Source of the DNA: Scatophagus argus | Lineage: Eukaryota > Chordata > Actinopteri > Scatophagidae | Assembly: GCF_020382885.2 (NCBI RefSeq) | Contig: NC_058497.1 | Location: forward strand, 17,972,330 to 18,036,329 | Direction of reading: 5' to 3' | DNA length: 64,000 nt | In this document: in pieces, positions 1 through 64,000 of the stretch | How positions within the stretch are numbered: position 1 is the first letter of the stretch | Layout of the letters: each line of letters begins with the position of its first letter | Made by a program: the position numbers and the translations under genes | Notes under the pieces: generated by a model | Told to the model about the DNA's origin: nothing | Seen by the model: only the letters and a program-made list of their open reading frames with translations | Database searches by the model: none

Positions 1-3000
1 CTTGGGTTGGCCTGTTGATCAGTGATGATGACTATGGACTTCATGCTGCCCGATCCTTCCAATCTGACCTGGTTCAGTCTGGTAGAGGTTGTCTGGCCTA
101 TGTGGAGGTTTTACCTTGGGACAATGACCAAGATGAATTAAGAAGGATTGTGGATGTAATGAAGAAATCGACAGCTCGTGTGGTCATTTTGTTTGCAAAT
201 GAGGGTCACATGAGTAACCTCATGGAAGAGGTTGGGCATGAAATAAACTTTTTTATAACTGAATATAGTGATAAAATTAATCTTTTATTTATCACACTAA
301 TAGCTTAAAATTACAATGAGATCTTGTCCTGTTAAAATATATTTATTTGGTACTCATAGCTGTTAGTTTTAGAATGGCAAAAGTTCATTCATTCACATTC
401 CACAGACCTGTAATTATGATAAGTATAATGTTACTCATATCTTCTGGAAAACATTGGATTCCATCCATTAATGAATGAGGAGGAAAGATAACTGTGTAAA
501 CTGCACATAATTCAGAGGACTAGACACAACTTTAGTGGCATGAGAGTGTGAATTTCTATATTTATTATAATGCACAGGTGGCGAGGCAGAATGTGACAGG
601 CCTGCAGTGGATGGCCAGTGAAGCTTGGACAGCAGCTACTGCGCTCCACACTCCTCACCTCACGCCATACCTGGCTGGCACACTGGGTATCGCCATCCGC
701 CGAGGAGAAATCCCAGGCCTCAGAGAATTCCTCTTACAAACACGTCCTGACCTACACAACAACAACAGCTATGGAAACAGCATGGTGAGAGTTTAATCAT
801 GCAGTCTGATCTAGACATTACATGACTAATGTAATTTTGTCTAAAACAATACTTTGAATATATTTCAGATCAACCAGTTTTGGGAATACACATTTCAATG
901 TAGATTTGCACCACCTCCAGCAGACTGGGTAGATGCTGGGGAAGCATTATGCACTGGACAAGAAGATCTGGAAAGTGTGGAGACTGAGCTCATGGATGTT
1001 TCAGACCTCAGTTCAGAGTACAATGTGTACAAGGCTGTGTATGCACTGGCATATGCTCTCGATGACATGCTGCGCTGTGTGCCAGGCAGAGGGCCTTTCA
1101 GAGGACACAGCTGTGGCAGTTTGAAAGGACTGGAGCCATGGCAGGTATGATACCACTATGCATGCCACCTGTTTATATGGCTAAATCCTGGTGGCAATTG
1201 TTTCATGCATTATAATATTTAGAGTGTAGGACCGGACTCTATCCTCTTAGTAAACTGTGTGTTGCAATTTGATCTGATTTCTCATTTCAGTTTTCCAGTT
1301 GTTGTGAGGATTATTTACGCTTACGTACATAAGAAAAAAAAGATTGAATGGATAAAAACCTTTGTGCTGATTTTTGAGTTGAAAAATAAATTATTCTGTG
1401 CTTATATGTTTCACATCTTCATATTGCAAAAGCATAGAGCAAGGTAAAGAGTCATGGTTTTAAATGGCAGGAACGTTTCTAAACTGGAGCTGTGATCCAC
1501 AATCCTTATTTCAGACATACAGCATAATGTGACCTCTTTAATGTCTTCATAGTTCATAAGCGCAGGATGCATTCTGATGACTTAGTGTTGTACTGTTGTA
1601 TTCATTGTAGTCATGCATACATTATACATTGTATGTTGTATAATTCTCTTTGGTTTTTCTCTATCCATTATTCTGATATTCACATAGCTGGTGTATTATT
1701 TAGATAAGGTCAACTTCACCACATCATTTGGTGATCAAGTGACATTTGATGAGAATGGTGATGCCTTACCAATATATGATATCATGAACTGGCTGTGGCT
1801 CCCTGATGGAACCACTAAACTTCAGAATGTGGGTGAGGTTAAGAAGTCAGCCTTCAAAGGTGAAGAACTCACAATTGATGCACACAAAATCTTCTGGAAC
1901 TTTGAATCAAAAAAGGTTACTAATGATTTTTAAGACACCCATGTTGTATTCCATTGATAGCTGATTATAACATTGAAAGAAATGTAGAATAATTTTCAAT
2001 CAGTAGCATGTTGATTTCTTTTCCCAATAGCCACCCCGGTCAGTGTGCAGTGAGAGCTGTCCTCCAGGTACCCGCATGGCCAGAAAGAAAGGGGAACCTG
2101 TGTGCTGCTTTGACTGCATCCCTTGTTCTGAGGGAAAGATCAGCAATGAGACTGGTTTGTATTGAATTTTAAATATTGAAATTTGGAAATATAATATGAA
2201 CATGTATCTCAACACTGTTCCTCTTTTCACAGACTCATTGGAGTGCACCAGTTGTCCAGAGGACTTCTGGTCCAGCCCCCAGCATGATCACTGTGTTCCC
2301 AAGGAAACAGAGTTCCTCTCCTACCATGAACCTCTGGGTATTGGCCTGACAGCTGCTACATTACTGGGCACCTGTATGTGTGCTGTTGTCCTCGGCATCT
2401 TCATCTGTCATCGCAGAACACCTATAGTACGCGCCAACAATTCAGAACTGAGTTTTCAGTTATTGCTGTCACTTAAGTTATGTTTCCTGTGTTCACTGCT
2501 GTTTATTGGTCGTCCCAGACTGTGGACATGCCAGCTGAGACACGCAGCATTTGGGATCAGTTTTGTGCTTTGCATCTCATGTATCCTGGTGAAAACCGTG
2601 GTGGTTCTGGCTGTGTTCAAGGCTTCCAAGCCAGGAGGTGGAGCCAGTCTGAAATGGTTTGGTGCTATGCAGCAGAGAGGGACAGTCATGGTTCTCACTT
2701 CTATTCAGGCAGCAATCTGCACTGCTTGGATTACATCTGCCTCCCCAGTTCCCCATGAAAACACTCAATACAACAATGACAAAATAGTATATGAGTGTGT
2801 AGTTGGGTCCACAGTTGGTTTTGCAGTTTTATTGGGTTATATTGGTTTACTAGCTATCCTCAGTTTTCTGATTGCATTTATAGCAAGAAAACTCCCAGAT
2901 AGTTTCAATGAGGCCAAACTCATCACTTTCAGCATGCTGATCTTCTGTGCTGTGTGGGTGGCCTTTGTCCCTGCTTATGTCAGCTCACCGGGCAAATATG

Positions 3001-3143
3001 CAGATGCAGTGGAGGTATTTGCCATCCTGGCCTCCAGTTTTGGCCTCTTGGTAGCACTGTTTGGACCCAAATGTTACATAATCCTGCTGAGACCAGAGAG
3101 GAACACAAAGAAAGCTATCATGGGTCGAGGTATAAAGACATAA
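1..3143 (+). CDS. OlfC/V2R-type chemosensory receptor, copy 1 (5' part outside window)
   Basis: Class C GPCR expected in the olfactory epithelium. Visible exons are 4 (1-230, start cut off), 5 (578-784), 6 (869-1144), 7 (1688-1915), 8 (2031-2154) and 9 (2233-3143), all with AG acceptors and GT donors and one continuous frame. Exon 4 opens in the Venus-flytrap domain at [13 protein letters not shown], whose Tyr is the family's amino-acid-contacting tyrosine. Exon 5 reads WMASEAW and carries the acidic pocket residue. Exon 8 (124 bp, the usual size for the V2R cysteine-rich exon) and the start of exon 9 hold the cysteine-rich domain. Exon 9 holds the seven-helix domain and ends in FGPKCY plus a short tail. 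Intron 6 (543 bp) resembles that of copy 6. The intron 8 donor is GTTTGT, unlike the other copies. No disabling change is visible. Confidence 0.93.
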
Positions 3144-4810: not shown

Positions 4811-7800
4811 ATGCGGGCGTTTTTAGAATTCAACTTGCTCTTGCTTATGTGTTTCATGTTGTTGTATCAGTTTGTTTCTTCTGCTGAGTCCTCCTCTCTT
4901 TCTTCCTCCTCCTGCCAGTTACAGCAACGTTTTCATTTAAATGGGATGCACAAGCCTGGAGATTTGGTTCTAGGTGGGCTGTTCCTGATCCACTTCTTTA
5001 CTGTTTTTCCTGACATGTCTTTTACATCAGAACCACAACAGCCCACCTGTCATGGGTGAGTCTGTCAGGACAGCAGCAAAAACAGAAATTGGGGATTTTT
5101 AAATATTTTTTTATCATCAAATATTACTCTTTAAACATACTGCTTATTTTTTAAGAATTATTCTCTCAACTGTCAAGAGTGTTTGCAAAACATGTACATA
5201 TATGCAGAATTTGTGTATGTCACATTTTTCATCAGTGTTTTTGTGTGTGTGTTTGTTAGTTTTGATGTTGTAGGATTTAGACGGGCACAGACCATGGCCT
5301 TTGCTATTGATGAGATCAACAGAAACTCCAACCTGCTACCTAATGTGACTCTGGGATACAGTCTTTATGATAATTGTGCTAATCCAGGGGTTGGATTTCG
5401 TGCAGCATTGTCCTTAGTCAGTGGTCAAGAGGATCAGTTTATGTTAGACGAGACTTGTGTTGGAACCCTTTCAGTACTCGGGATTGTGGGTGATTCTTCC
5501 TCTACACATTCTATTGCCATCTCAAGTGTCTTAGGCTTGTACAGAGTGCCTATGGTAAGTTTTTCACATTGCTTTTTTCAGGATGTATTTGATTGTTCTA
5601 ATTTAAATTAAAATTTGAAATCACTTGTAACCATAAAGTATCATCCTTAAAACATGAAAGAGCTTGAAAGACTTCATATACAGTGTGTTTCTTTTACAGG
5701 TGAGTTATTTTGCCACATGTTCCTGTCTGAGTGACCGGCAAAAGTTTCCATCCTTCTTCAGGACAATACCAAGTGATGCTTTCCAGGTGACCAGATATCA
5801 GCAAAATTAAATGCAAAAAGGATAGCATATGAAACATTCCTCAGACGTTTTTTTTTTTTTTTTTTTTGCAATGATAATGTCATGCCTAGGTTTTTTGTTA
5901 TGCTTTGTCTTTTGATTTCTGTCCATGTGCCATGTTCCATGTTTGTCTTGTGCTTCCATGTATTATGTTAAAGGTTTTTGTCATGTCCTGTTTTATTTTG
6001 AAAAGGGTCACTTCCCCTGTGCGTCCTGTTTTCATATAGCTTTGCTTTTAGTTTTCCTGATTACTTTCTCCCTCCTGATGTGTGTCACCTGTGTCTCGTT
6101 GTCCTGTCTATTTAGTCCTTGTCTTCCCAGTCACCTTTGTCTGAGCGTCTGCATTTTTTCCCCCCAAGCCATGCCAAGATCTGCGTTATTTCCATGTCAT
6201 GCTAGGAACCTTTTGTTGTACTTTGCCATGTTTGCCCAGGAGTTTTTGCCACAGTAGGTGTGTTATTTGAGTTTAGCTTTGTTTAATAAAAGACCATTGT
6301 TTTTGGACCTCCACCTCGCCTGCTCCTTTTGACTCTGCATCGGGGTTCATTAAATTTCTGCGTCAGCGACGCCGACATATCGTGACAGATAAATACATTC
6401 CCATGTTTATGTACCTTTGGTCATGTTCTTTTTGTCACTGGTCTCACAGAAAACTGCAAGGCAATAATTAAAGGTCCACTAAAAGGTCTAATGTTAAACC
6501 TGTTCAGCGAATTTTGAAGTGAAAAAATATTTCAGCCTGTACTTTCATCTTTTCGCGCTCAATTCACTCAGGTCCGTGCTATGATCCAGATTCTAAACCA
6601 CTTTGGCTGGACTTGGGTTGGCCTGTTGATCAGTGATGATGACTATGGACTTCACGCTTCCCGATCCTTCCAATCTGACCTTGTTCAGTCTGGTGCAGGG
6701 TGTCTGGCCTATTTGGAGGTTTTGCCTTGGGACAATGACCAAGATGAAATCAGGAGGATTGTGGATGTGCTGACGAAATCTACAGCTCGAGTGGTCATTG
6801 TGTTTGCACAGGAAACTCATATGATGAACCTCATGGAAGAGGTTGGGCATGAAACACAACTTATAGAATAAGGATTATAACTTAACATACTGATAAAACT
6901 CAACATGTTTGTATGATGTTATATAAAATAAATGTACATATATACACACACAGGTGGTGAGGCAGAATGTTACAGGCCTGCAGTGGATTACCAGTGAATC
7001 TTGGACAGCAGCTACTGTGCTCCACACTCCCCACCTCACGCCACACCTGGCTGGCACACTGGGTATCGCCATCCGTCGAGGAGAAATCCCAGGCCTCAGG
7101 GAATTCCTCTTACAAACACGTCCTGACCTACACAACAACAACAGCTATGGCAATAACGTGGTGAGAGTTTAATCATGAAATCTGATCTAGTAACTGCAAG
7201 AACAATATCATTGTTTACATCACATTATTTTGAATATATTTCAGATCAACCAGTTTTGGGAATACACATTTCAGTGTAGATTTGCACCACCTCCAGCAGG
7301 TTGGGTAGATGCTGGGGGAGCATTATGCACTGGGCAGGAAGATCTAGAAAGTGTGGAGACTGAGTTATTGGATGTTTCAGACCTCAGGTCAGAGTACAAT
7401 GTGTACAAGGCTGTGTATGCACTGGCATATGCTCTTGATGACATGCTGCGCTGTGTGCCAGGCAGAGGGCCTTTCAGAGGACACAGCTGTGGCAGTTTGA
7501 AAGAACTGGAGCCATGGCAGGTATGATATCAGATTACATGCCACCTGTTCATGTGGTTTGTTAAATGTTTATTGTAGTAGATAATTTAGAGTGTAGGATG
7601 AAACACAGTCCAGAATACTGTATGTGTTGCAGTCCAAGTTTCTCCATTTTTTCTTCTCCCAGCCTTCTTTAATTTTGCTCTAGTGTAACATCTAGTGCCG
7701 ACAAATTTCATGTAACAACTTTCGCTACCTGTTTGCTACCTGTTGTAGGGACATTTCCATCATCTATCAACTGACAAAACAGATTAGATACAGACTTTTA

Positions 7801-10170
7801 TTTTGTTTTGTTTTGTGCAGTCTGCAGAGAAATCTTTTCTGATATGTTCCAAAGCTTCTTTTAACAGCAGTATACAGCAAGGTATATATAACATGGTTCA
7901 GTGGGCAGGGCAGTCTCCTAGCTGGAAGTTTTCCTGCGTTACAGAGTGATGCAGACAACTGACAGACCAAAAGTCTCAACCACAAAAGAGTTGTTAACGG
8001 AGGTGCTGGACACAGTGCATAACATATTTTGTAAGGATGTAAACTTTGCCTGTGATCCCTTGACAAAAAAAAGATAGAACAATAAGATAAGATAAAACTG
8101 AAATGGTGGATTTTCCCTTTCATTTATGGATTATTGCATAAAAAAGTAAATGTTATACTATAGAGCTTTACCATTGTCAGATGATCACAGTTTCACCATC
8201 TTCCAACCAGAACATAATGTACACAATTTAGAAACTGTATGATAACTATATGTAAGAACTGTATGATAACTGTATGATAATTCTACTGAAAGTTTTAGGT
8301 AGAATATTTTGCAAAAATGTTATAAAGAAAATGTTTTGGTTTCAATGTTCAGCATAATCACTGTCAATGTCACCTGGACTTTCATTTAGCCGCTTATTTT
8401 TTTTTTTTTTAAAAACAAAACAACAAAACAAAACATAAAAGCTTCAAAGCTTTGAAGTTGAGTATTTACTAATACACTTAGTCTAAAAAAATATGAAAAT
8501 TTCTTTATTTTTTATGTCATCCACAGCCCTTATTTCAGACATACAGCATAATGTTTACTATTCAGTGTCTTCATATATTCATCAGTGCAGTATGCATTTT
8601 GATTACTGAAAACTAGCAATTGTTTTGTCCATTATAGTCATATACATTGTACATTGTATAATTCTTTTTTAATGTGTTCTCTTTGGTTTTTCTCTAACCT
8701 TTTATCTGATATTCATATAGCTGGTGTATTATTTGGAAAAGGTCAACTTCACCACATCATTTGGTGATCAAGTGTCATTTGATGAGAATGGTGATGCCTT
8801 ACCAATATATGATATCATGAACTGGCTGTGGCTCCCTGATGGAAGAACTAAACTTCAGAATGTGGGTGAGGTTAAGAAGTCAGCCTTCAAAGATGAAGAA
8901 CTCACAATTGATGCAGACAAAATCTTCTGGAACTTTGAATCAAAAGAGGTTACTAATGATTTTTAAGACAACGATTTTGTAGCCAAAAGAAAACTGACAC
9001 TGAAAACAGTTTAGAATAATATTCAATTAGTAACATGTTGATTTTTTCCCCCTATAGCCACCCCGGTCAGTGTGCAGTGAGAGCTGTCCTCCAGGTACCC
9101 GTGTGGCCAGAAAGAAAGGGGAACCTGTGTGCTGCTTTGACTGCATCCCTTGTTCTGAGGGAAAGATCAGCAATGAGACTGGTTAGCATACAGTTTTAAA
9201 CATTGCAGTTTAGAAATATTATACAAACACGTATCTCAAGACTGTCCCTCTTTTAACAGACTCATTGGAGTGCACCAGTTGTCCAGAGGACTTCTGGCCC
9301 AACCTCCAGCGTGACCACTGCGTTCCCAAGAAAATAGAGTTTCTCTCCTACCATGAACCTCTGGGTATCTGCTTGACAGCTGCTGCATTGCTGGGTACAT
9401 GTATGTGTGCTGTTGTCCTCGGCATCTTCATCTATCATTATACAACACCTATAATACGCGCCAACAATTCAGAACTGAGTTTTCAGTTACTGCTGTCACT
9501 TAAGTTATGTTTCCTGTGTTCACTGCTGTTTATCGGTCGTCCCAGACTGTGGACGTGCCAGCTGAGACATGCAGCATTTGGGATCAGTTTTGTGCTTTGC
9601 ATCTCATGTATCCTGGTAAAAACTGTGGTGGTCCTGGCTGTGTTCAAGGCCTCCAAGCCAGGAGGTGGAGCCAGTCTGAAGTGGTTTGGTGCTATGCAGC
9701 AGAGAGGGACAGTCATTGTTCTCACTTCTGTTCAGGCAGCAATCTGCACTGCCTGGATTGTATCTGCCTCCCCAGTTCCTCATAGAAACACTCAATACAA
9801 CAATGATAAGATTGTTTATGAGTGTGTAGTTGGGTCCACAATTGGTTTTGCAGTTTTACTGAGCTATATCGGCTCCCTGGCTATTCTCAGTTTTGTGATT
9901 GCATTTATAGCAAGGAACCTTCCAGATAGTTTCAATGAGGCCAAACTCATCACTTTCAGCATGCTGATCTTCTGTGCTGTGTGGGTGGCCTTTGTCCCTG
10001 CTTATGTCAGCTCACCAGGCAAATATGCAGATGCAGTGGAGGTATTTGCCATCCTGGCCTCCAGTTTTGGCCTCCTGGTAGCACTGTTTGGACCCAAATG
10101 TTACATAATCCTGCTGAGACCAGAGAGGAACACAAAGAAAGCTATCATGGGTCGAGGCATTCATAAATAA
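4811..10170 (+). CDS. OlfC/V2R-type chemosensory receptor, copy 2
   Basis: Nine exons: 4811-5055, 5260-5554, 5700-5786, 6572-6841, 6954-7160, 7245-7520, 8721-8948, 9058-9181, 9260-10170; 880 residues. Residues 1 to about 24 are a signal peptide. About 30-520 form the Venus-flytrap domain, with GDSSST (159-164), VSYFAT (181-186), DDDYG (Tyr234) and SESW (Glu314) at the positions that contact amino-acid ligands in class C receptors. Residues of about 540-600 are the cysteine-rich domain. Seven helices follow, then FGPKCY (854-859) and a short cytoplasmic tail. The receptor should signal at the plasma membrane of olfactory neurons. The start is the ATG shared by all copies (here MRAF instead of MWAF). 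Intron 3 carries a solo LTR, and intron 6 is the longest of the array (1200 bp). Exon 4 resembles copies 7-10 more than its neighbours. The tail ends GIHK. Confidence 0.95.
5878..6387. mobile_element. Solo LTR (Ty3/gypsy-like) in intron 3 of copy 2
   Basis: A 510-bp segment with ends TGTCATG and CGTGACA (near-perfect short inverted ends of LTR type), an AATAAA signal near 6282, and 5-bp direct repeats GATAA at 5873-5877 and 6388-6392. No internal coding region is present, so it is a solo LTR. The other copies lack it in the same intron, so it arrived after copy 2 split off. The intact target duplication suggests a fairly young insertion. Confidence 0.8.
7521..8720. other. Long intron 6 of copy 2
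   Basis: A 1200-bp intron, against 318-788 bp in the other copies. It has a poly-T/A-rich stretch near 8398-8440. Its ends match intron 6 of the other copies, so the extra length is internal. I recognise no element or gene in it. Confidence 0.5.
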
Positions 10171-15082: not shown

Positions 15083-18000
15083 ATGTGGGCATTTTTAGAA
15101 TTCAACTTGCTCTTGCTTATGTGTTTCATGTGGTTGCATCCCTCCTTTTCATATGCTGAGTCCTCCACTCTTTCTTCCTCCTTCTGCCAGTTACATCAAC
15201 ATTTTCATTCAAATGGGATGCACAAGCCTGGAGATGTGGTTCTAGGTGGGCTGTTCCTGATCCACCTCTATACTGTTTTTCCTGACATGTCTTTTACATC
15301 AGAACCACAACAGCCCACCTGTCGTGGGTGAGTCTGTCAGGACAGCAAAAAGCAGAAACTGTGGAAATTCAATCCATTTAGTCAGGTGTATTTGAAAGAA
15401 TTAGATTGCGCATTAAATCTATTATATTTTGAATAGACTGTTTATTTTGCAATATTTATGACCATTCCACTGTCATAATTTTTTTCTGAATCTTTAGTTG
15501 TGTCACATGTACATGTTGGGTGATTTAGTGTATGTTGTATTTTTCAGTAGTAACTAGTTGTATTTTTTGTGTTAGTTTTGATCTTATAGGATTTAGACAG
15601 GCACAGACCATGGCCTTTGCTATTGATGAGATCAACAGAAACTCCAACCTGCTACCTAATGTGACTCTGGGATACAGTCTTTATGATAATTGTGCTAATC
15701 CAGGGGTTGGATTTCGTGCAGCATTGTCCTTAGTCAGTGGTCAAGAGGAGCAGTTTGTATTAGCCAAGACCTGTGTTGGAACCCCTCCAGTAGTGGGGAT
15801 TGTGGGTGATTCTTCCTCTACACTTTCTATTGCCATTTCCAGTGTCTTAGGCTTGTACAGAGTGCCTTTGGTAAGTCTTACACTTTGCCTTTTCATTATG
15901 GTTTTGCATCATTTTGATTTAAATTCAAATTTAATATCAACTGTAAACTCTAAAAAGTTGAAAGAGCTTGAAAGACTTCATATACAGTGTGTTTCTTTTA
16001 CAGGTGAGTTATTTTGCCACATGTTCCTGTCTGAGTGACCGGCAAAAGTTTCCATCCTTCTTCAGGACAATACCAAGTGATGCTTTCCAGGTGATCAAAT
16101 ATCAACAAAATGAAAATGCAAAGAACAAAGCATGTCAATTTGTGTAACTCTGCTCACATTTTTTGTCACTGATTTGCCTTTCATTAAAAGAAAGCTGAAA
16201 GGCAATAATTAAAAGTCTGCTCAAGCTTTATTTTTTAACCAGTTCAGCAGGTTTTCCATTGAAAGAATATTTCAGCCTGTACTCTAATCTATTCACTCTG
16301 TATTCATTTAGGTGCGTGCAATGATTCAGATTCTATACCACTTTGGCTGGACTTGGGTAGGCCTGTTGATCAGTGACGATGACTATGGACTTCACGCTGC
16401 CCGATCCTTCCAATCTGACCTGGTTCAGTCTGGTAGAGGTTGTCTGGCCTATATGGAGGTTTTGCCTTGGGACAATGACCAAGATGAATTAAGAAGGATT
16501 GTGGATGTAATGAAGAAATCAACAGCTCGTGTGGTCATTTTGTTTGCACATGAGCGTCACGTGTTTAAGCTCATGGAAGAGGTTGGGCATTAAATAAACT
16601 TTTTGTTATAACTGAAAATAGTGATAAAATTAATCTTTTTTATTATCACACTAATAGCTTAAAATTACAATGAGATATTGTCCTGTGAATATATATTTGT
16701 TTGTTACTCTTAGCTGTTAGTTTTATCATGACATGAGTAATTAAAACAAATTCGATAAACCTGTAATTATGATAAATATAACATTACATTGCAGGAGGCA
16801 AGATAACTGTGTAAACTGCATATAATTCAGGGGACTAGACACAACTTTCGTGGCATGAGAGTGTGAATTTCTGTATTTATTATAATGCACAGGTGGCGAG
16901 GCAGGATGTGACAGGCCTGCAGTACATGATCAGTGAATCTTGGACAGCAGCTACTGCGCTCCACACTCCCCACCTCACGCCATACCTGGCTGGCACACTG
17001 GGTATCGCCATCCGCCGAGGAGAAATCCCAGGCCTCAGGGAATTCCTCTTACAAACACGTCCTGACCTACACAACAACAACAGCTATGGAAACAGCATGG
17101 TGAGAGTTTAATCATGCAATCTGATCTAGAAATTGAAACAAAAATGCATTCATTTACATCACATTATTCTGAATACATTTCAGATCAACCAGTTTTGGGA
17201 ATACACATTTCAGTGTAGATTTGCACCACCTCCACCAGGTTGGGTAGATGCTGGGGGAGCATTGTGCACTGGACAAGAAGATGTGGAAAATGTGGAGAAT
17301 GATTTCTTGGATGTTTCAGACCTCAGGTCAGAGTACAATGTGTACAAGGCTGTGTATGCACTGGCATATGCCCTTGATGGCATGCTGCGTTGTGTGCCAG
17401 GCAGAGGGCCTTTCAGAGGACACAGCTGTGGCAGTTTGAAAGGACTGGAGCCATGGCAGGTATGATATCAGATTACATGCCACCTGTTTATCTGGTGAAA
17501 TCATCTTGTCTAATATTTCTTGCAGTGTAGCATTTAGAGTGCAGGATTAATTATTATTTTATGAGAACACTTTTCATAAATTGCCAAGCAAATACTATTA
17601 GATGAAAGCATTCTTTTGTCTGCTGGTTCATACCATTGAACAGTATTGTTAGGTAGGTGTGTAAAGATGTTAAAATATTTTGAGATTTTTATTTTAAATT
17701 TGCACTTGGTGAACTCCCACACACTGGTAGGCATCAGCAACTTTTTTTCTGTTAGCTCTACAGGTGTCGTTGGAGCCAGGTGACCACTGTAACTAAACCT
17801 AACTGGACTTTTACCATGAGGACAATATGCAATATGCACTTTTAAACTAAGAACTTCACCAAAGCAGATGTTTGAGCAGGAATGTGATCTGCGTTAGCCT
17901 CTGCATCCCTGCCCAATGGGCCACTAATGACAACTTTTAGGTCTGAGCATGTAGCTGCTGGGTGCTCATCTTAGTTACATCACATCAAAAAACAATATTT

Positions 18001-19701
18001 CCTGCAGATCGTTACTGTTGGACTTAACTAACTTTACAGAGACTTTACATGCAATGTACAGTCATGAATCACACTAAAATCTAAATAGCATGATAAGGCA
18101 TCTTCAGTGTCTTCATATGTTCATGAGTGCAGTATGCATTTTGATTACTAAATACTAAATACTGCTGTGTACACTGTAGTCATATACATTGTACATTGTA
18201 TGATTCTGTTCTAATCTTTCTAACCTTTTCTTCTGATATTCATGCAGCTGGTGTATTATTTGGATAAGGTCAACTTCACCACATCATTTGGTGATCAAGT
18301 GACATTTGATGAGAATGGTGATGTCTTGCCAATATATGATATCATGAACTGGCTGTGGCTCCCTGACGGAAGAACTAAACTTCAGAATGTGGGTGAGGTT
18401 AAGAAGTCAGCCTTCAAAAGTGAAGAACTCACAATTGATGCACACAAAATCTTCTGGAACTTTGAATCAAAAGAGGTTACTAACCATGTGTCAGATTGCT
18501 TTTTTGTCTTCTTTTCTTGGCCCATGGATAATTGATTATAACAGTGTAAATGCTGAAGAATGACACATTATTGATTTTTATAGCCACCCCGGTCAGTGTG
18601 CAGTGAGAGCTGTCCTCCAGGTACCCGTATTGCCAGAAAGAAAGGGGAACCTGTGTGCTGCTTTGACTGCATCCCTTGTTCTGAGGGAAAGATCAGCAAT
18701 GAGACTGGTTAGCATACAGTTTTAAACATTGCAGTTTGATATAATATACAGATAATATGAACATGTATCTTAAGACTGTTCCTCTTTTCGCAGACTCATT
18801 GGAGTGCACCAGTTGTCCAGAGAACTTCTGGCCCAGCCTCCAGCGTGACCACTGTGTTCCCAAGGAAACAGAGTTCCTCTCCTACCATGAACCTCTGGGT
18901 ATCTGCTTGACAGCTGCTGCGTTACTGGGCACCTGTATGTGTGCTGTTGTCCTGGGCATCTTCATCTATCATCGGAGAACACCAATAGTACGCGCCAACA
19001 ACTCAGAACTGAGTTTTCAGCTATTGCTGTCACTTAAGTTATGTTTCCTGTGTTCACTGCTGTTTATCGGTCGTCCCACACTGTGGACATGTCAGCTGAG
19101 ACATGCAGCATTTGGGATCAGCTTTGTGCTTTCCATCTCATGTATCCTGGTGAAAACCGTGGTGGTTCTGGCTGTGTTCAAGGCCTCCAAACCAGGAGGT
19201 GGAGCCAGTCTGAAGTGGTTTGGCGCTATGCAGCAGAGAGGGACAGTCATGGTTCTTACTTCTATTCAGGCAGCATTCTGCACTGCCTGGATTGTATCTG
19301 CTTCACCAGTTCCTCACAAAAACACCGAATACCACAATGATAAGATTGTCTATGAGTGTGTAGTTGGATCCACAGTTGGTTTTGCAGTTTTGCTGGGATA
19401 TATCAGCTCCCTGGCTATCCTCAGTTTTCTGATTGCATTTATAGCAAGGAACCTGCCAGATAGTTTCAATGAGGCCAAACTCATCACTTTCAGCATGCTG
19501 ATCTTCTGTGCTGTGTGGGTGGCCTTTGTCCCTGCTTATGTCAGCTCACCGGGCAAATATGCAGATGCAGTGGAGGTATTTGCCATCCTGGCCTCCAGTT
19601 TTGGCCTCCTGGTAGCACTGTTTGGACCCAAATGTTACATAATCCTGCTGAGACCAGAAAGTAACACAAAGAAAGCCATCATGGGTCGAGGTATTCAATA
19701 A
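15083..19701 (+). CDS. OlfC/V2R-type chemosensory receptor, copy 3
   Basis: Exons 15083-15327, 15576-15870, 16004-16090, 16312-16581, 16893-17099, 17184-17459, 18248-18475, 18584-18707 and 18794-19701 give 879 residues. Junctions 1 and 2 are phase 2 and phase 0; exons 3-7 are all bounded by phase-0 introns; exon 8 ends in phase 1. The signal peptide is [15 protein letters not shown] onward. Exon 2 has FVLAKTC where most copies have a D-E-T-C or D-D-T-C run, and exon 5 reads [14 protein letters not shown]. Exon 6 carries [17 protein letters not shown], which marks copies 3-5 as a subgroup. The cysteine-rich exon reads TRIARKK. FGPKCY is intact and the tail ends [13 protein letters not shown]. 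The stop lies within AATAAATAAA. It appears functional. Confidence 0.95.
17460..18247. other. Intron 6 of copy 3
   Basis: A 788-bp intron shared almost base for base with copies 4 (23205-23992) and 5 (28743-29530), which supports their common recent origin. A minus-strand open frame of about 100 codons is seen in copies 3 and 4 only, and I take it as chance. No element recognised. Confidence 0.6.
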
Positions 19702-20827: not shown

Positions 20828-23800
20828 ATGTGGGCATTTTTAGAATTCAACTTGCTCTTGCTTATGTGTTTCATGTGGTTGCATCCCTCCTTTTCATATG
20901 CTGAGTCCTCCCCTCTTTCTTCCTCCTTCTGCCAGTTACATCAACATTTTCATTCAAATGGGATGCACAAGCCTGGAGATGTGGTTCTAGGTGGGCTGTT
21001 CCTGATCCACCTCTATACTGTTTTTCCTGACATGTCTTTTACATCAGAACCACAACAGCCCACCTGTCTTGGGTGAGTCTTTCAGGACAGCAACAAGCAG
21101 AAACTGTGGAAAATCAATCCATTTAGTCAGGTGTATTTGAAAGAATTAGATTGCGCATTAAATCTATTATATTTTGAATAGACTGTTTATTTTGCAATAT
21201 TTATGACCATTCAACTGTCATAATTTTTTTCTGGATCTTTAGTTGTGTCACATGTACATGTTGGGTGATTTAGTGTATGTTGTATTTTTCAGTAGTAACT
21301 AGTTGTATTTTTTGTGTTAGTTTTGATCTTATAGGATTTAGACGGGCACAGACCATGGCCTTTGCTATTGATGAGATCAACAGAAACTCCAACCTGCTAC
21401 CTAATGTGACTCTGGGATACAGTCTTTATGATAATTGTGCTAATCCAGAGATTGGATTTCGTGCAGCATTGTCCTTAGTCAGTGGTCGAGACGAGCAGTT
21501 TATGTTAGATGACACCTGTGTTGGAACCCCTCCAGTAGTGGGGATTGTGGGTGATTCTTCCTCTACACATTCTATTGCCATTTCCAGTGTCATAGGCTTG
21601 TACAGAGTGCCTTTGGTAAGTGTTACACTTTGCCTTTTCATTATGGTTTTGCATCATTTTGATTTAAATTCAAATTTGAAATCAATTGTGAACCCTGAAA
21701 AGTTGAAAGAGCTTGAAAGACTTCATATACAGTGTGTTTCTTTTACAGGTGAGTTATTTTGCCACATGTTCCTGTCTGAGTGACCGGCAAAAGTTTCCAT
21801 CCTTCTTCAGGACAATACCAAGTGATGCTTTCCAGGTGACCAAATATCAACAAAATGAAAATGCAAAAAACAAAGCATGTCAACTTGTGTAACTCTGCTC
21901 ACATTTTTTGTCACTGATTTGCCTTTCATTAAAAGAAAGCTGAAAGGCAATAATTAAAAGTCTACTCAAAGTCTGTTTTTCAACCTGTTCAGCAGGCTTT
22001 CCATTGAAAGAATATTTCAGCCTGTACACTAATTCTTTCACTCTGTATTCATTTAGGTGCGTGCTATGATTCAGATTCTAAACCACTTTGGCTGGACTTG
22101 GGTTGGCCTGTTGATCAGTGATGATGACTATGGACTTCACGCTGCCCGATCCTTCCAATCTGACCTGGTTCAGTCTGGTAGAGGTTGTCTGGCCTATATG
22201 GAGGTTTTGCCTTGGGGCAATGACCAAGATGAATTAAGAAGGATTGTGGATGTAATGAAGAAATCAACAGCTCGTGTGGTCATTTTGTTTGCACATGAGC
22301 GTCACGTGAATAAGCTCATGGAAGAGGTTGGGCGTTAAATAAACTTTTTGTGATAACTGAATATATTGATAAAATTAATCTTTTTTTTAATCACACTAAT
22401 AGCTTAAAATTACATTGAGATATTGGCCTGTAAATATATATTTATTTGGTACTCTTAGCTGTTAGTTTTAGAATGACATGAGTTATTAAAACAAATTCGA
22501 CAAACCTGTAATTATGATAAATATAACATTACATTGCAGGAGGCAAGATAACTGTGTAAACTGCATATAATTCAGGGGACTAGACACAACTTTCGTGGGA
22601 TGAGAGTGTGAATGTCTATATTTATTATAATGCACAGGTGGCGAGGCAGAATGTGACAGGCCTGCAGTGGATTACCAGTGAATCTTGGACAGCAGCTACT
22701 GCGCTCCACACTCCCCACCTCACGCCATACCTGGCTGGCACACTGGGTATCTCCATCCGTCGAGGAGAAATCCCAGGCCTCAGGGAATTCCTCTTACAAA
22801 CACGTCCTGACCTACACAACAACAACAGCTATGGAAACAGCATGGTGAGAGTTTAATCACGCAATCTGATCTAGAAATTGCAGCAAAAACGCATTAATTT
22901 ACATCACATTATTTTTAATATATTTCAGATCAACCAGTTTTGGGAATACACATTTCAGTGTAGATTTGCACCACCTCCACCAGGTTGGGTAGATGCTGGG
23001 GGAGCATTGTGCACTGGACAAGAAGATGTGGAAAATGTGGAGAATGATTTCTTGGATGTTTCAGACCTCAGGTCAGAGTACAATGTGTACAAGGCTGTGT
23101 ATGCACTGGCATATGCCCTTGATGACATGCTGCGTTGTGTGCCAGGCAGAGGGCCTTTCAGAGGACACAGCTGTGGCAGTTTGAAAGAACTGGAGCCATG
23201 GCAGGTATGATATCAGATTACATGCCACCTGTTTATCTGGTGAAATCATCTTGTCTAATATTTCTTGCAGTGTAGCATTTAGAGTGCAGGATTAATTATT
23301 ATTTTATGAGAACACTTTTCATAAATTGCCAAGCAAATACTATTAGGTGAAGGCATTCTTTTGTCTGCTGGTTCATACCAGTGAACAGTATTGTTAGGTA
23401 GGTGTGTAAGGATGCTAAAATATTTTGAGATTTTTATTTTAAATTTGCACTTGGTGAACTCCCACACACTGGTAGGCATCAGCAACTTTTTTTCTGTTAG
23501 CTCTACAGATGTTGTTGGAGCCAGGTGACCACTGTAACTAAATCTAACTGGACTTTTACCATGAGGACAATATGCAATATGCACTTTTAAACTAAGAACT
23601 TCACCAAAGCAGATGTTTGAGCAGGAATGTGATCTGCGTTAGCCTCTGCATCCCTGCCCAATGGGCCACTAATGACAACTTTTAGGTCTGAGCATGTAGC
23701 TGCTGGGTGCTCATCTGAGTTACATCACATCAAAAAACAATATTTCCTGCAGATCGTTACTGTTGGACTTAACTAACTTTAAAGAGACTTTACATGCAAT

Positions 23801-25449
23801 GTACTGTCATGAATCACACTAAAACCTAAATAGCATGATAAGGCATCTTCAGTGTCTTCATATGTTCATGAGTGCAGTATGCATTTTATTTACTAAATAC
23901 TAAATACTGCTGTGTATACTGTAGTCATATACATTGTACATTGTATGATTCTGTTCTAATCTTTCTAACCTTTTTTTCTGATATTCATGCAGCTGGTGTA
24001 TTATTTGGATAAGGTCAACTTCACCACATCATTTGGTGATCAAGTGACATTTGATGAGAATGGTGATGTCTTACCAATATATGATATCATGAACTGGCTG
24101 TGGCTCCCAGATGGAACAACTAAACTTCAGAATGTGGGTGAGGTTAAGAAGTCAGCCTTCAAAAGTGAAGAACTCACAATTGATGCAGACAACATCTTCT
24201 GGAACTTTGAATCCAAAGAGGTTACTAACCATGTGTCAGATTGCCTTTTTTGTTTTTTTTTTTCTTGGCCCATGGATAATTGATTTTAACAGTGTAAATG
24301 CTGCAGAATAACACATTATTGATTTTTATAGCCACCCCGGTCAGTGTGCAGTGAGAGCTGTCCTCCAGGTACGCGCATTGCCAGAAAGAAAGGGGAACCT
24401 GTGTGCTGCTTTGACTGCATCCCTTGTTCTGAGGGAAAGATCAGCAATGAGACTGGTTAGCATACAGTTTTAAACATTGCAGTTTGATATAATATAGAGA
24501 TAATATAAACATGTATCTTAAGACTGTCTCTCTTTTCATAGACTCATTGGAGTGCACCAGTTGTCCAGAGAACTTCTGGCCCAGCCTCCAGCGTGACCAC
24601 TGTGTTCCCAAGGAAACAGAGTTCCTCTCCTACCATGAACCTCTGGGTATCTGCTTGACAGCTGCTGCGTTACTGGGCACCTGTATGTGTGCTGTTGTCC
24701 TGGGCATCTTCATCTATCATCGGAGAACACCAATAGTACGCGCCAACAACTCAGAACTGAGTTTTCAGCTATTGCTGTCACTTAAGTTATGTTTCCTGTG
24801 TTCACTGCTGTTTATCGGTCGTCCCACTCTGTGGACGTGCCAGCTGAGACATGCAGCATTTGGGATCAGTTTTGTGCTTTGCATCTCATGTATCCTGGTG
24901 AAAACCGTGGTGGTTCTGGCTGTGTTCAAGGCCTCCAAACCAGGAGGTGGAGCCAGTCTGAAATGGTTTGGTGCTATGCAGCAGAGAGGGACAGTCATGG
25001 TTCTTACTTCTATTCAGGCAGCATTTTGCACTGCCTGGATTGTATCTGCCTCACCAGTTCCTCACAAAAACACTGAATACCACAATGATAAGATTGTCTA
25101 TGAGTGTGTAGTTGGGTCCACAATTGGTTTTGCAGTTTTGCTGGGTTATATTGGATCACTGGCTATCCTCAGTTTTCTGATTGCATTTATATCAAGGAAT
25201 CTCCCAGATAGTTTCAATGAGGCCAAACTCATCACTTTCAGTATGCTGATCTTCTGTGCTGTGTGGGTGGCCTTTGTCCCTGCTTATGTCAGCTCACCAG
25301 GAAAATATGCAGATGCAGTGGAGGTATTTGCCATCCTGGCCTCCAGTTTTGGCCTCTTGGTAGCACTGTTTGGACCCAAATGTTACATAATCCTGCTGAG
25401 ACCAGAGAGGAACACGAAGAAAGCCATCATGGGTCGAGGTATTCAATAA
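20828..25449 (+). CDS. OlfC/V2R-type chemosensory receptor, copy 4
   Basis: Exons 20828-21072, 21321-21615, 21749-21835, 22057-22326, 22638-22844, 22929-23204, 23993-24220, 24332-24455 and 24542-25449; 879 residues, no stop or frame break. It is the closest relative of copy 3 in exons and introns. Distinctive residues are NPEIGF and MLDDTC in exon 2, LPWGND instead of LPWDND in exon 4, LGISIRRGE in exon 5 and IDADNIFW in exon 7. The pocket residues DSSST, YFAT, Tyr of DDDYG and Glu of SESW are all kept, as is FGPKCY. The tail ends [12 protein letters not shown] with the stop inside AATAAATAAA. Same role as copy 2; ligand unknown. Confidence 0.95.
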
Positions 25450-26317: not shown

Positions 26318-29300
26318 ATGTGGGCATTTTTAGAATTCAACTTGCTCTTGCTTATGTGTTTCATGTGGTTGCATCCCTCCTTTTCTTATGCTGAGTCCTC
26401 CCCTCTTACATTCTCCTGCCAGTTACATCAACATTTTCATTCAAATGGGATGCACAAGCCTGGAGATGTGGTTCTAGGTGGGCTGTTCCTGATCCACCTC
26501 TATACTGTTTTTCCTGACATGTCTTTTACATCAGAACCACAACAGCCCACCTGTCTTGGGTGAGTCTTTTGGGACAGCAAAAAGCAGAAACTGTGGAAAA
26601 TCAATCCATTTAGTCAGGTGTATTTGAAAGAATTAGATTGTGCATTAAATTTATTATATTTTAAATACACTGTTTATTTTTGCAATGCTTATGACCATTC
26701 AACTGTCATAATTTTTTTCTGAATCTTTAGTTGTGTCATATTTACATGTTGGGTGATTTATTGTATGTTGTATTTTTCAGTAGTAACTAGTTGTATTTTT
26801 TGTGTTAGTTTTGATCTTATAGGATTTAGACGGGCACTGACCATGGCCTTTGCTATTGATGAGATCAACAGAAACTCCAACCTGCTACCTAATGTGACTC
26901 TGGGATACAGTCTTTATGATAATTGTGCTAATCCAGAGATTGGATTTCGTGCAGCATTGTCCTTAGTCAGTGGTCAAGAGGAGCAGTTTATGTTAGATGA
27001 CACCTGTGTTGGAACCCCTCCAGTAGTGGGGATTGTGGGTGATTCTTCCTCTACACATTCTATTGCCATCTCCAGTGTCTTAGGCTTGTACAGAGTGCCT
27101 TTGGTAAGTGTTACACTTTGCCTTTTCATTATGGTTTTGCATCATTTTGATTTAAATTTAAATTTAATATCAATTGTGAACCCTGAAAAGTTGAAAGAGC
27201 TTGAAAGACTTCATATACAGTGTGTTTCTTTTACAGGTGAGTTATTTTGCCACATGTTCCTGTTTGAGTGACCGGCAAAAGTTTCCATCCTTCTTCAGGA
27301 CAATACCAAGTGATGCTTTCCAGGTGACCAAATTTCAACAAAATGAAAATGCAAAAGACAAAGCATGTCAACTTGTGTAACTCTGCTCACATTTTTTGTC
27401 ACTGATTTGCCTTTCATTAAAAGAAAGCTGAAAGGCAATAATTAAAAGTCTACTCAAAGTCTATTTTTCAACCTGTTCAGCAGGTTTTCCATTGAAAGAA
27501 TATTTCAGCCTGTACTCTAATTCTTTCACTCTGTATTCACTCAGGTCCGTGCTATGATTCAGATTCTAAACCACTTTGGCTGGACTTGGGTTGGCCTGTT
27601 GATCAGTGATGATGACTATGGACTTCATGCTGCACGATCCTTCCAATCTGACCTGGTTCAGTCTGGTCGAGGTTGTCTGGCCTATATGGAGGTTTTGCCT
27701 TGGGACAATGACCAAGATGAATTAAGAAGGATTGTGGATGTAATGAAGAAATCAACAGCTCGTGTGGTCATTTTGTTTGCAAATGAGCGTCACGTGAATA
27801 AGCTCATGGAAGAGGTTGGGCATTAAATAAACTTTTTGTTAAAACTGAATATATTGATAAAATTAATCTTTTATTTATCACACTAATAGCTTAAAATTAC
27901 AATGAGATATTGCCCAGTAAAAATGTTTGCCTGTAAAAAATTGTTTGGTACTCTTAGCTGTTTATTTTAGAATGACATAATTTATTCAAACAAATTCCAC
28001 AAAGCTGTAATTATGACAAGTTTTAAATTTAGTCATATCTTCTGGAAAACACGGGATTCCATCCATTAATGAATGAGGAGGAAAGATAACTGTGTAAACT
28101 GCATATAATTCAGGGGACTAGACACAACTTTCGTGACATGAGAGTGTGAATTTCTGTATTTATTATAATGTACAGGTGGCGAGGCAGAATGTGACAGGCC
28201 TGCAGTACATGATCAGCGAATCTTGGACAGCAGCTACTGCGCTCCACACTCCCCACCTCACGCCATACCTGGCTGGCACACTGGGTATCGCCATCCGTCG
28301 AGGAGAAATCCCAGGCCTCAGGGAATTCCTCTTACAAACACGTCCTGACCTACACAACAACAACAGCTATGGAAACAGCATGGTGAGAGTTTAACTACAA
28401 AATCTGAACTAGACATTACATGACTAATGTAATTTTGTATAAAACAGTACTTTGAATATATTTCAGATCAACCAATTTTGGGAATACACATTTCAGTGTA
28501 GATTTGCACCACCTCCAGCAGACTGGGTAGATGCTGGGGGAGCATTATGCTCTGGACAGGAAGATATGGAAAATGTGGAGAATGACTTCTTGGATGTTTC
28601 AGACCTCAGGTCAGAGTACAATGTGTACAAGGCTGTGTATGCACTGGCATATGCCCTTGATGACATGCTGCGCTGTGTGCCAGGCAGAGGGCCTTTCAGA
28701 GGACACAGCTGTGGCAGTTTGAAAGAACTGGAGCCATGGCAGGTATGATATCAGATTACATGCCACCTGTTTATCTGGTGAAATCATCTTGTCTAATATT
28801 TCTTGCAGTGTAGCATTTAGAGTGCAGGATTAATTATTTTTTTATGAGAACACTTATCATAAATTGCCAAGCAAATACTATTAGGTGAAGGCATTCTTTT
28901 GTCTGCTGGTTCATACCATTGAACAGTATTGTTTGGTAGGTGTGTCAAGATGTTAAAGTATTTTCAGATTTTTATTTTAAATTTGCACTTGGTGAACTCC
29001 CACACACTGGTAGGCATCAGCAACTTTTTTTCTGTTAGCTCTACAGATGTTGTTGGAGCCAGGTGACCACTGTAACTAAATCTAACTGGACTTTTACCAT
29101 GAGGACAATATGCAATATGCACTTTTAAACTAAGAACTTCACCAAAGCAGATGTTTGAACAGGAATGTGATCTGCGTTAGCCTCTGCATCCCTGCCCAAT
29201 GGGCCACTAATGACAACTTTTAGGTCTGAGCATGTAGCTGCTGGGTGCTCATCTTAGTTACATCACATCAAAAAACAATATTTCCTGCAGATCGTTACTG

Positions 29301-30987
29301 TTGGACTTAACTAACTTTAAAGAGACTTTACATGCAATAAACTGTAATGAATCACACTAAAACCTAAATAGCATGATAAGGCATCTTCAGTGTCTTCATA
29401 TGTTCATGAGTGCAGTATGCATTTTATTTACTAAATACTAAATACTGCTGTGTATACTGTAGTCATATACATTGTACATTGTATGATTCTGTTCTAATCT
29501 TTCTTACCTTTTTTTCTGATATTCATATAGCTGGTGTATTATTTGGATAAGGTCAACTTCACCACATCAATTGGTGATCAAGTGACATTTGATGAGAATG
29601 GTGATGTCTTGCCAATATATGATATCATGAACTGGCTGTGGCTCCCTGACGGAACAACTAAACTTCAGAATGTGGGTGAGGTTAAGAAGTCAGCCTTCAA
29701 AAGTGAAGAACTCACAATTGATGCACACAAAATCTTCTGGAACTTTGAATCAAAAGAGGTTACTAACCATGTGTCAGATTGCTTTTTTGTCTTTTTTTCT
29801 TGGCCCATGGATAATTGATTATAACAGTGTAAATGCTGCAGAATAACACATTATTGATTTTTATAGCCACCCCGGTCAGTGTGCAGTGAGAGCTGTCCTC
29901 CAGGTACCCGCATGGCCAGAAAGAAAGGGGAACCTGTGTGCTGCTTTGACTGCATCCCTTGTTCTGAGGGAAAGATCAGCAATGAGACTGGTTAGCATAC
30001 AGTTTTAAACATTGCAGTTTGATATAATATACAGATAATATGAACATGTATCTTAAGACTGTCACTGTTTTCATAGACTCATTGGAGTGCACCAGTTGTC
30101 CAGAGGACTTCTGGCCCAGCCTCCAGCGTGACCACTGTGTTCCCAAGGAAACAGAGTTCCTCTCCTACCATGAACCTCTGGGTATCTGCTTGACAGCTGC
30201 TGCATTGCTGGGCACCTGTATGTGTGCTGTTGTCCTGGGCATCTTCATCTGTCATCGGAGAACACCTATAGTACGCGCCAACAACTCAGAACTGAGTTTT
30301 CAGCTATTGCTGTCACTTAAGTTATGTTTCCTGTGTTCACTGCTGTTTATCGGTCGTCCCACACTGTGGACATGTCAGCTGAGACATGCAGCATTTGGGA
30401 TCAGCTTTGTGCTTTCCATCTCATGTATCCTGGTGAAAACCGTGGTGGTTCTGGCTGTGTTCAAGGCCTCCAAGCCAGGAGGTGGAGCCAGTCTGAAATG
30501 GTTTGGTGCTATGCAGCAGAGAGGGACAGTCATGGTTCTTACTTCTGTTCAGGCAGCATTCTGCACTGCCTGGATTGTATCTGCCTCCCCAGTTCCTCAT
30601 AAAAATACTCAGTATTACAACGATAAGATTGTTTATGAGTGTGTTGTTGGGTCCACAATTGGTTTTGCAGTTTTGTTAGGTTATATCGGCTTCCTGGCTG
30701 TCCTCAGTCTTTTTATTGCATTTATTTCAAGGAATCTTCCAGATAGTTTCAATGAGGCCAAACTCATCACTTTCAGCATGCTGATCTTCTGTGCTGTGTG
30801 GGTGGCCTTTGTCCCTGCTTATGTCAGCTCACCAGGAAAATATGCAGATGCAGTGGAGGTATTTGCCATCCTGGCCTCCAGTTTTGGCCTCCTGGTAGCA
30901 CTGTTTGGACCCAAATGTTACATAATCCTGCTGAGACCAGAGAGGAACACAAAGAAATCTATCATGGGTCGAGGCAACGATACATAA
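26318..30987 (+). CDS. OlfC/V2R-type chemosensory receptor, copy 5
   Basis: Exons 26318-26559, 26809-27103, 27237-27323, 27545-27814, 28176-28382, 28467-28742, 29531-29758, 29867-29990 and 30077-30987; 879 residues. Exon 1 is one codon shorter than in copies 2-4 ([10 protein letters not shown]) and shares this with copy 6. Exon 5 reads QYMISESW as in copy 3. Exon 7 has TTSIGDQ where all others have TTSFGDQ. The fifth-helix region ([16 protein letters not shown]) differs most from its neighbours. The tail is [13 protein letters not shown], a C-terminus shared with copy 6 rather than with 3 and 4. FGPKCY and all pocket residues are present. It appears functional. Confidence 0.95.
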
Positions 30988-33554: not shown

Positions 33555-36500
33555 ATGTGGGCATTTTTAGAATTCAACTTGCTCTTGCTTATGTGTTTCA
33601 TGTGGTTGCATCCCTCCTTTTCATATGCTGAGTCCTCCCCTCTTACATTCTCCTGCAAGTTACATCAACATTTTCATTCAAATGAGATGCACAAGCCTGG
33701 AGATTTGGTTCTAGGTGGGCTGTTCCTGATCCACTTCTTTACTGTTTTTCCTGACATGTCTTTTACATCAGAACCACAACAGCCCACCTGTCATGGGTGA
33801 GTCTGTCAGGACAGCAAAAAGCAGAAACTGAGGAAAATCAATCCATTTAGTCAGGTGTATTTGAAAGAATTAGATTGCGCATTAAATCTATTATATTTTA
33901 AATACACTGTTTATTTTTTAATGTTTATGAATTCAGCTGTCATACATTTTTTCAAAATCTTTAGTTGTGTCACATTTACATGTTGGCTGATTTAGTGTAT
34001 GTTGTATTTGTCACTAGTAACCAGTTGTATTCTTTCTGTTAGTTTTGATGTTGTAGGATTTAGACGGGCACAGACCATGGCCTTTGCTATTGATGAGATC
34101 AACAGAAACTCCAACCTGCTACCTAATGTGACTCTGGGATACAGTCTTTATGATAATTGTGCTAATCTAGAGATTGGATTTCGTGCAGCATTGTCCTTAG
34201 TCAGTGGTCGAGAGGAGCAGTTTTTGTTAGACGAGACTTGTGTTGGAACCCCTCCAGTAGTGGGGATTGTGGGTGATTCTACCTCTACAAATTCCATTGC
34301 CATCTCCAGTGTCTTAGGCTTGTACAGAGTGCCTATGGTAAGTTTTTCACATTACCTTTTCAGGATGGTTTTGCATCATTTTGATTTAAATTCAAATTTA
34401 ATATCAATTGTAAACTCTAAAACGTTGAAAGAGCTTGAAAGACTTCATATACAGTGTGTTTCTTTCACAGGTGAGTTATTTTGCCACATGTTCCTGTCTG
34501 AGTGACCGGCAAAAGTTTCCATCCTTCTTCAGGACAATACCAAGTGATGCTTTCCAGGTGACCAAATATCAGCAAAATGAAAATGCAAAAAGCAAAGCAT
34601 GTCAACTTCTGTAGCTCTGCTCATTAAAAGAAAGCTGAAAGGCAATCATTAAAAATCTACTCAAAGTCTATTTTTCAACCAGTTCAGCAGGCTTTCCATT
34701 GAAAGGATATTTCAGCCTGTACTCTAATCCTTTCACTCTGTATTCTCTCAGGTGCATGCTATGATTCAGATTCTAAAACACTTTGACTGGACTTGGGTTG
34801 GCCTGTTGATCAGTGATGATGACTATGGACTTCACGCTGCCCGATCCTTTCAATCTGACCTGGTTCAGTCTGGTCGAGGTTGTCTGGCCTATTTGGAGGT
34901 TTTACCTTGGGACAATGACCAAGATGAATTAAGAAGGATTGTGGATGTAATGAAGAAATCGACAGCACATGTGGTCATTTTGTTTGCACATGAAGGTCAC
35001 ATGAGTAACCTCATGGAAGAGGTTGGGCATTAAATACATTTTTTTATAACTGAATATAATGATAAAATATTTTTTTTGTTTATCACAGTAACAACTTAAA
35101 ATTACAATGGGATATTGTCCTGTTAAAATATATTTATTTGGTACTCTTAGCTGTTAGTTTTAGAATGACATGAGTTATTAAAACAAATTGCACAAATCTG
35201 TAATTATGATAAGTATGATGTTACTCATATCTTCTGGAAAACATGGGATTCCATCCATTAATGAATGAGAAGGAAAGATAACTCTGTAAACTGCACATAA
35301 TTCAGGGGACAAGACACAACTATACTGGCATGAGAGTGTGAATTTCTATATTTATTATAATGCACAGGTGGTGAGGCAGAATGTGACAGGCCTGCAGTGG
35401 ATTACCAGTGAAGCTTGGACAGCAGCTACTGCGCTCCACACTCCTCACCTCACGCCATACCTGGCTGGCACACTGGGTATCGCCATGCGTCGAGGACAAA
35501 TCCCAGGCCTTAGGGAATTCCTCTTACAAACACGTCCTGACCTACATCATAACAGCAGCAACTATGGAAACAGCATGGTGAGAGTTTAACTACAAAATCT
35601 GAACTAGACATTACATGACTAATGTAATTTTGTATAAAACAGTACTTTGAATATATTTCAGATCAACCAATTTTGGGAATACACATTTCAGTGTAGATTT
35701 GCACCACCTCCAGCAGACTGGGTAGATGCTGGGGGAGCATTATGCACTGGACAGGAAGATATGGAAAGTGTGGAGAATGACTTCTTGGATGTTTCAGACC
35801 TCAGGTCAGAGTACAATGTGTACAAGGCTGTGTATGCACTGGCATATGCTCTTGATGACATGCTGCACTGTGTGCCAGGCAGAGGGCCTTTCAGAGGACA
35901 CAGCTGTGGCAGTTTGAAAGGACTGGAGCCATGGCAGGTATGATACCACTATGCATCCCACCTTTTTATATTCCTAAATTCTGGTGGCAATTGTTTCATG
36001 CATTGTAGCATTTAGAGTGTAGGATTGGACTCTGACAGGGATGTTTCTAAACTGGAGCTGTGATCCACAATCCTTATTTCAGACATACAGCATAATGTGA
36101 CCTCTTTAATGTCTTTATAGTTCATAAGTGCAGGATGCATTCTGATGACTTAATGTTGTACTGCTGTGTTCATTGTAGTCATGCATACATTATACATTGT
36201 ATGTTGTATAATTCTCTTTGGTTTTTCTCTATCCATTATTCTGATTTTCACATAGCTGGTGTATTATTTGGATAAGGTCAACTTCACCACATCATTTGGT
36301 GATCAAGTGTCATTTGATGAGAATGGTGATGCCTTACCAATATATGATATCATGAACTGGCTGTGGCTCCCTGATGGAACAACTAAACTTCAGAATGTGG
36401 GTGAGGTTAAGAAGTCAGCCTTCAAAGGTGAAGAACTCAGAATTGATGCAGACAAAATCTTCTGGAACTTTGAATCAAAAAAGGTTACTTCTGATTTATT

Positions 36501-41243: not shown

Positions 41244-41281
<38 letters not shown>

Positions 41282-47183: not shown

Positions 47184-47222
<39 letters not shown>

Positions 47223-60083: not shown

Positions 60084-60090
60084 ATTGTAA

Positions 60091-63700: not shown

Positions 63701-64000
63701 TGTGTTCATTGCAGTCATATATATTGCATGTTGCGATTACGTTCTGATTCAATCTGTCATCTTTCCCTTTTCACTATCTATTATTCTGATATTCATCTAG
63801 TTGGTGTATTATTTGGATAAGGTCAACTTCACCACATCATTTGGTGATCAAGTGACATTTGATGAGAATGGTGATGTCTTACCAATATATGATATCATGA
63901 ACTGGCTGTGGCTCCCTGATGGAACAACTAAACTTCAGAATGTGGGTGAGGTTAAGAAGTCAGCCTTCAAAGGTGAAGAACTCAGAATTGATGAAGACAA
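60766..64000 (+). CDS. OlfC/V2R-type chemosensory receptor, copy 10 (3' part outside window)
   Basis: Visible exons are 60766-61010, 61249-61543, 61689-61775, 61985-62254, 62580-62786, 62872-63147 and 63801 to the window end (200 of 228 bases). Frame open so far. Exons 1-3 and their introns follow copy 7 (CLSDRQ, GGGCTTTTTCAC start region), while exon 5 ([10 protein letters not shown]) and intron 6 with the interrupted GT repeat follow copy 9. Exon 4 is distinctive (AHQKHTINL) and exon 6 reads [19 protein letters not shown]. The exon 2 acceptor is GCTAG where others have GTTAG, and exon 7 starts TTG where others start CTG (both Leu). The cysteine-rich and seven-helix exons lie beyond the window. 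Confidence 0.93.
63266..63313. repeat. GT microsatellite in intron 6 of copy 10
   Basis: (GT)n run with CT interruptions, same form as in copy 9. Confidence 0.9.

Follow-up and report, generated by a model that had tools for sequence, protein, structure and literature searches.

Each complete copy of a tandemly arrayed class C receptor gene in the window (the whole 64,000-nucleotide stretch of Scatophagus argus DNA analysed here) has nine coding exons, three of its introns lying inside the third coding exon of the six-exon plan described for this family. We consider the best explanation, with a probability of roughly 0.85, to be that the ancestral third coding exon acquired three spliceosomal introns, a change that would have taken the gene from six to nine coding exons before the young local array was formed. 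The extra introns would be removed by ordinary GT-AG splicing, most likely without any special function of their own, and the protein would have the architecture usual in class C receptors, in which a Venus flytrap domain for the ligand is combined with a cysteine-rich domain and seven transmembrane helices.

Using the exons of the copy at 15083-19701 as BLAST queries and building gene models with splice-site checks, we found ten OlfC/V2R-type class C receptor genes in the window, all on the plus strand, of which eight are complete (copies 2-9) and one is cut at each window edge:

1..3143, plus strand: copy 1, exons 4-9, with exon 4 cut by the window start
4811..10170, plus strand: copy 2, complete
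15083..19701, plus strand: copy 3, complete
20828..25449, plus strand: copy 4, complete
26318..30987, plus strand: copy 5, complete
33555..37711, plus strand: copy 6, complete
38762..42940, plus strand: copy 7, complete
44687..49173, plus strand: copy 8, complete, with a stop codon in exon 1
51051..55564, plus strand: copy 9, complete
60766..64000, plus strand: copy 10, exons 1-7, ending inside exon 7 at the window end

The exons of the complete copies measure 245, 295, 87, 270, 207, 276, 228, 124 and 911 bp (stop included), with three variants: copy 6 has an exon 5 of 210 bp, copies 5 and 6 share an exon 1 of 242 bp, and copies 3 and 4 have an exon 9 of 908 bp (copy 1, like the remaining complete copies, has 911 bp there). 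The original prediction had assigned nine exons to all ten copies, which holds for the eight that are seen whole, copies 1 and 10 being cut by the window edges; its sizes for the exons outside the split region (about 245, 295, 228, 124 and 911 bp) are right apart from the exon 1 and exon 9 variants just given. Introns begin with GT and end with AG throughout the array (75/75). Mean dS among copies 2-9 is 0.116 (range 0.024-0.159; 28 pairs), which marks the copies as young duplicates, and the ten therefore amount to one evolutionary observation. In copy 8, exon 1 (44687-44931) holds an in-frame stop and the remainder of the frame is open; this gene may be a recent pseudogene, or the stop may be a polymorphism or a sequence error.

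Other elements lie between the genes. The segment at 14219-14813, between copies 2 and 3, matches the final 36 bp of the template for exon 9 together with the downstream flank of other copies (94.5% match to 19663-20265); it is likely what is left of an eleventh copy, next to a retroelement. On the minus strand at 11056-13106 are retroelement open reading frames with reverse transcriptase, integrase zinc-binding and Tf2-1-like SH3 domains, an element that we take to be Ty3/gypsy-like. A further minus-strand element at 57902-60188, presumably of the non-LTR kind, has open reading frames in which a reverse transcriptase domain was identified and a match to an endonuclease stayed under its cut-off.

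The identity of the receptors was assessed on the spliced copy 3 protein, in which the domains ANF_receptor (91-495), NCD3G (538-591) and 7tm_3 (606-857) follow one another in that order, all above the cut-off, and for which the best solved relatives are calcium-sensing receptors (E ~1e-217). The best reading of the genes is nevertheless the OlfC/V2R type, given the tandem array, the signature motif and the usual features of the family; the choice of OlfC over CaSR draws on the array and on those features. An eight-residue amino-acid signature of OlfC (S, S/T, R, D, Q, Y, G, D/E) is set out in the available part of the zebrafish study (PMC1764893). All eight residues are present in copies 2-10, and the truncated copy 1 shows only Y, G and E; within the strings GDSSST or GDSTST, a serine aligns with CaSR Ser147 in 9/9 copies. 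The ligands would probably be amino acids. The signature residues are parted 1/4/2/1 over exons 2, 3, 4 and 5, with Q as the last codon of exon 3.

The region singled out at the start, 16004-17459, coincides to the base with exons 3 to 6 of copy 3 and the introns between them; the structure of this copy is as follows:

15083..15327, plus strand: exon 1, signal peptide and start of the ligand domain, phase-2 end
15576..15870, plus strand: exon 2, phase-0 end
16004..16090, plus strand: exon 3, 87 bp, first piece of the block, with four of the eight signature residues
16091..16311, plus strand: extra intron A, 221 bp, phase 0, GT-AG, AG/GT flanks
16312..16581, plus strand: exon 4, 270 bp, second piece of the block, with the signature Tyr-Gly
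16582..16892, plus strand: extra intron B, 311 bp, phase 0, GT-AG, AG/GT flanks, donor gttggg
16893..17099, plus strand: exon 5, 207 bp, third piece of the block, with the signature Glu
17100..17183, plus strand: extra intron C, 84 bp, phase 0, GT-AG
17184..17459, plus strand: exon 6, 276 bp, fourth piece of the block, ending at the shared junction WQ/LVYYL
18248..18475, plus strand: exon 7
18584..18707, plus strand: exon 8, phase-1 end
18794..19701, plus strand: exon 9, transmembrane domain, to the stop

As had been predicted, the block consists of four exons of 87, 270, 207 and 276 bp that sum to 840 bp (843 bp in copy 6, owing to its longer exon 5), and three phase-0 GT-AG introns part them in every testable copy, that is, every copy with both ends of the intron within the window (9/9 at exon 3/4, 10/10 at exon 4/5 and 10/10 at exon 5/6). 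The first of the extra junctions reads SDAFQ/V and the third GN(S/N)(M/V)/I. The residues given for the junctions needed correction. At the second, copy 3 reads LMEE/VARQD and not LMEE/VVRQN; VVRQN is found in copies 2, 6, 8 and 10, VVRQD in copies 7 and 9, and VARQN in copies 1, 4 and 5. The methionine placed before the third junction is present in copies 1, 3, 4, 5 and 6, but is valine in copies 2, 7, 8, 9 and 10. The AG/GT flanks described for the first two extra junctions are there, and the third junction lacks them. Copy 2 differs from the rest in the lengths of two of these introns: its intron A is 785 bp (5787-6571) against 194-221 bp in the other eight copies, and its intron B is 112 bp (6842-6953) against 311-361 bp in the other nine.

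Judged from the DNA, the three extra introns look genuine, and their removal from the RNA is what we would expect. All 29 instances across the array begin with GT and end with AG (29/29), each would introduce at least two in-frame stops on read-through, and 21/29 have a length that is not a multiple of three (A 7/9, B 10/10, C 4/10). Compared pairwise between copies, introns A, B and C have mean identities of 0.84, 0.78 and 0.81, and exons 3 to 6 of 0.975, 0.932, 0.937 and 0.950. The alignment of the spliced copy 3 protein with CaSR is ungapped at the first and second extra junctions, and a four-residue difference in length lies a few residues upstream of the third. The donor of intron B, gttggg, which we take to be a weak match to the usual donor consensus, is identical in 10/10 copies.

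To see whether the introns are additional, copy 3 was aligned with the CaSR chain 8wpg (taken as human), numbering being by offset to chains starting at residue 26. The junctions between exons 1/2, 2/3, 6/7, 7/8 and 8/9 fall at CaSR 62 (phase 2), 164/165, 459/460, 536/537 and 578 (phase 1), and the three extra junctions at 193/194, 282/283 and 347/348. Three of the CASR junctions, presumably at c.185, c.1377 and c.1732, agree with those of copy 3, and the extra introns all lie inside c.493-1377 of CASR, presumably a single exon with its end at c.1377. The two remaining CASR junctions are documented in the available parts of two reports, one at c.492 (splice variant c.492+1G>A, with c.491A>G falling in Gln164; PMC10901938) and one at c.1608 (splice variant c.1608+1G>A, with exon 5 skipped; PMC9449487). 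The phases at the five shared junctions, positioned here against CaSR, are 2, 0, 0, 0 and 1, as in the OlfC plan of six coding exons; that plan's stipulation of no further coding introns is broken by the three extra ones. For zebrafish, the accessible text of Alioto and Ngai (2006; PMC1764893) states that every full-length OlfC gene is made up of six coding exons and that the phases are strictly conserved. It also states that gene models were edited to keep intron positions and that variation reported earlier was ascribed to errors of assembly or prediction, so that the six-exon statement holds partly by construction. In the portion available, a review gives the exon number as six in T1R genes and as about six in V2R genes (PMC12294341). 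The flytrap region is described elsewhere as one in which exon prediction is difficult (PMC9018814). The prediction that the introns are additions to a six-exon plan is thus borne out by the match of the other five junctions to CASR and by the reported structure of zebrafish OlfC genes.

The ends of the introns bear no mark of a gain mechanism. AG/GT flanks had been offered as a mark of intron gain; they do occur at the first two junctions, but splicing itself favours AG/G at exon ends and we give them little weight as proof that introns were inserted there. In the copy 3 block AGGT is present at 6/840 positions, and two of the three extra junctions use one. An origin by local tandem duplication of exon ends was also considered and set aside: comparison of intron ends with the facing exon ends gave 1.2-3.9 matches in 12 for the extra three introns and 1.7-4.9 for the other five, where chance gives 3, although the trace of an old gain could have faded since. 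Introns A-C compared with the window gave one 29-bp match only (E 6e-4), from intron A of copy 2 to intron 7-8 of copy 9; no Rfam family of RNA genes reached threshold within the window, and a search for fish relatives in viral contigs and prokaryote genomes confirmed none.

Three other accounts of these data were weighed. That the segments are mis-framed exon sequence, or the copies decayed pseudogenes, would fit the stop in exon 1 of copy 8, but seven of the eight complete copies have no internal stop, the coding sequence is under purifying selection (dN/dS 0.35; 0.44 for exons 3-6 together) and the intervening segments combine stops and indels with conserved splice sites; we regard this account as scarcely credible. 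Another question is whether nine exons were ancestral for fish OlfC genes or for class C receptors, the three introns then having been lost in zebrafish and in CASR. Identity across copies in the five other introns is 0.70-0.86, and the extra introns therefore do not look younger; having diverged between copies to the same degree as the older introns, they give this idea some encouragement. It would, however, call for all three to have been lost in CASR and also across the zebrafish subfamilies, all of them six-exon in the available account (PMC1764893), and T1R genes are likewise listed with six exons in what is accessible of the review (PMC12294341), so that we hold ancestry of the nine-exon form to be unlikely. 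Gain is the parsimonious reading, given the structure of CASR, of T1R genes and of zebrafish OlfC genes; both the direction of change and its timing are inferred. The proposal that they predate the array is upheld by their presence in every testable copy of a set of close duplicates.

It is also conceivable that the introns are adaptive, in that they part the residues of the binding pocket into small exons that could be exchanged by gene conversion or unequal crossing over. The distribution of the eight signature residues over four exons is what such a module would look like, and exchange does appear to occur. Copy 6 is the nearest neighbour of copy 5 in intron C, where the two are identical, and in exon 6 (28383-28742 for the two together), while elsewhere copy 5 is nearest to copy 1 (intron B) or to copies 3 or 4 (most segments), exons 3 and 8 giving ties; the tract at intron C and exon 6 is likely the result of gene conversion with copy 6. 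Yet young arrays that lack such introns commonly undergo gene conversion too, and this single clear tract, the one examined, covers exon 6 and no signature residue. Exon 3 (16004-16090 in copy 3), which carries four signature residues, is moreover the most constrained piece rather than a diversifying one, with dN/dS of 0.06 against 0.38-0.62 in exons 4-6. An adaptive role accordingly strikes us as very improbable. We place at the same low level the wider proposition that three clustered introns arose, in one fish clade, within a single OlfC exon whose structure has otherwise been stable since the common ancestor with CaSR, and that the split pocket now shapes exchange among members of the array. 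Gain before the array, with ordinary splicing and no special function, remains the reading that we prefer.

Extra introns in OlfC genes are not reported in the available portions of the open literature on V2R/OlfC structure, and the accessible parts of PMC10116579, PMC10392011, PMC6953650, PMC7934567, PMC6588630 and PMC2728731 contain nothing on OlfC exon number; PMC1601972 touches on junctions there but gives no exon count. The nine exons may already be present in public gene models. A group of fish sharing them would provide a rare-change marker for the placement of OlfC subfamilies and a vertebrate example of clustered intron gain, one that could be dated with existing genomes. There may also be a practical consequence, since gene counts that assume a single large third exon could mistake nine-exon genes for fragments. 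The expected mode of action of the receptor would be unchanged by the extra introns.

Among known systems, human CASR shares with the genes in the window five junctions that coincide in codon and phase (two of them taken from papers), and differs in presumably having one exon (c.493-1377) where they have four. Zebrafish OlfC genes are alike in being class C receptors with the amino-acid signature motif, arranged in a tandem array of one orientation, and the five-junction phases are common to both, the positions having been compared with CASR and not with zebrafish sequence. They differ in their reported six coding exons, against nine here, the three extra phase-0 introns all falling in the third ancestral coding exon. 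Within fish chemosensory receptors there are precedents for new introns. The available text on the V1R-type genes ora3 and ora4 describes intron gain in ray-finned fish (PMC4132921), which is the same kind of event in a fish chemosensory receptor family, although in another receptor class and from an intronless ancestor. Likewise, odorant receptor genes with unexpected introns are described in the accessible parts of reports on the grenadier anchovy (PMC5387026) and cichlids (PMC4122780), those introns lying in genes that usually have a single exon.
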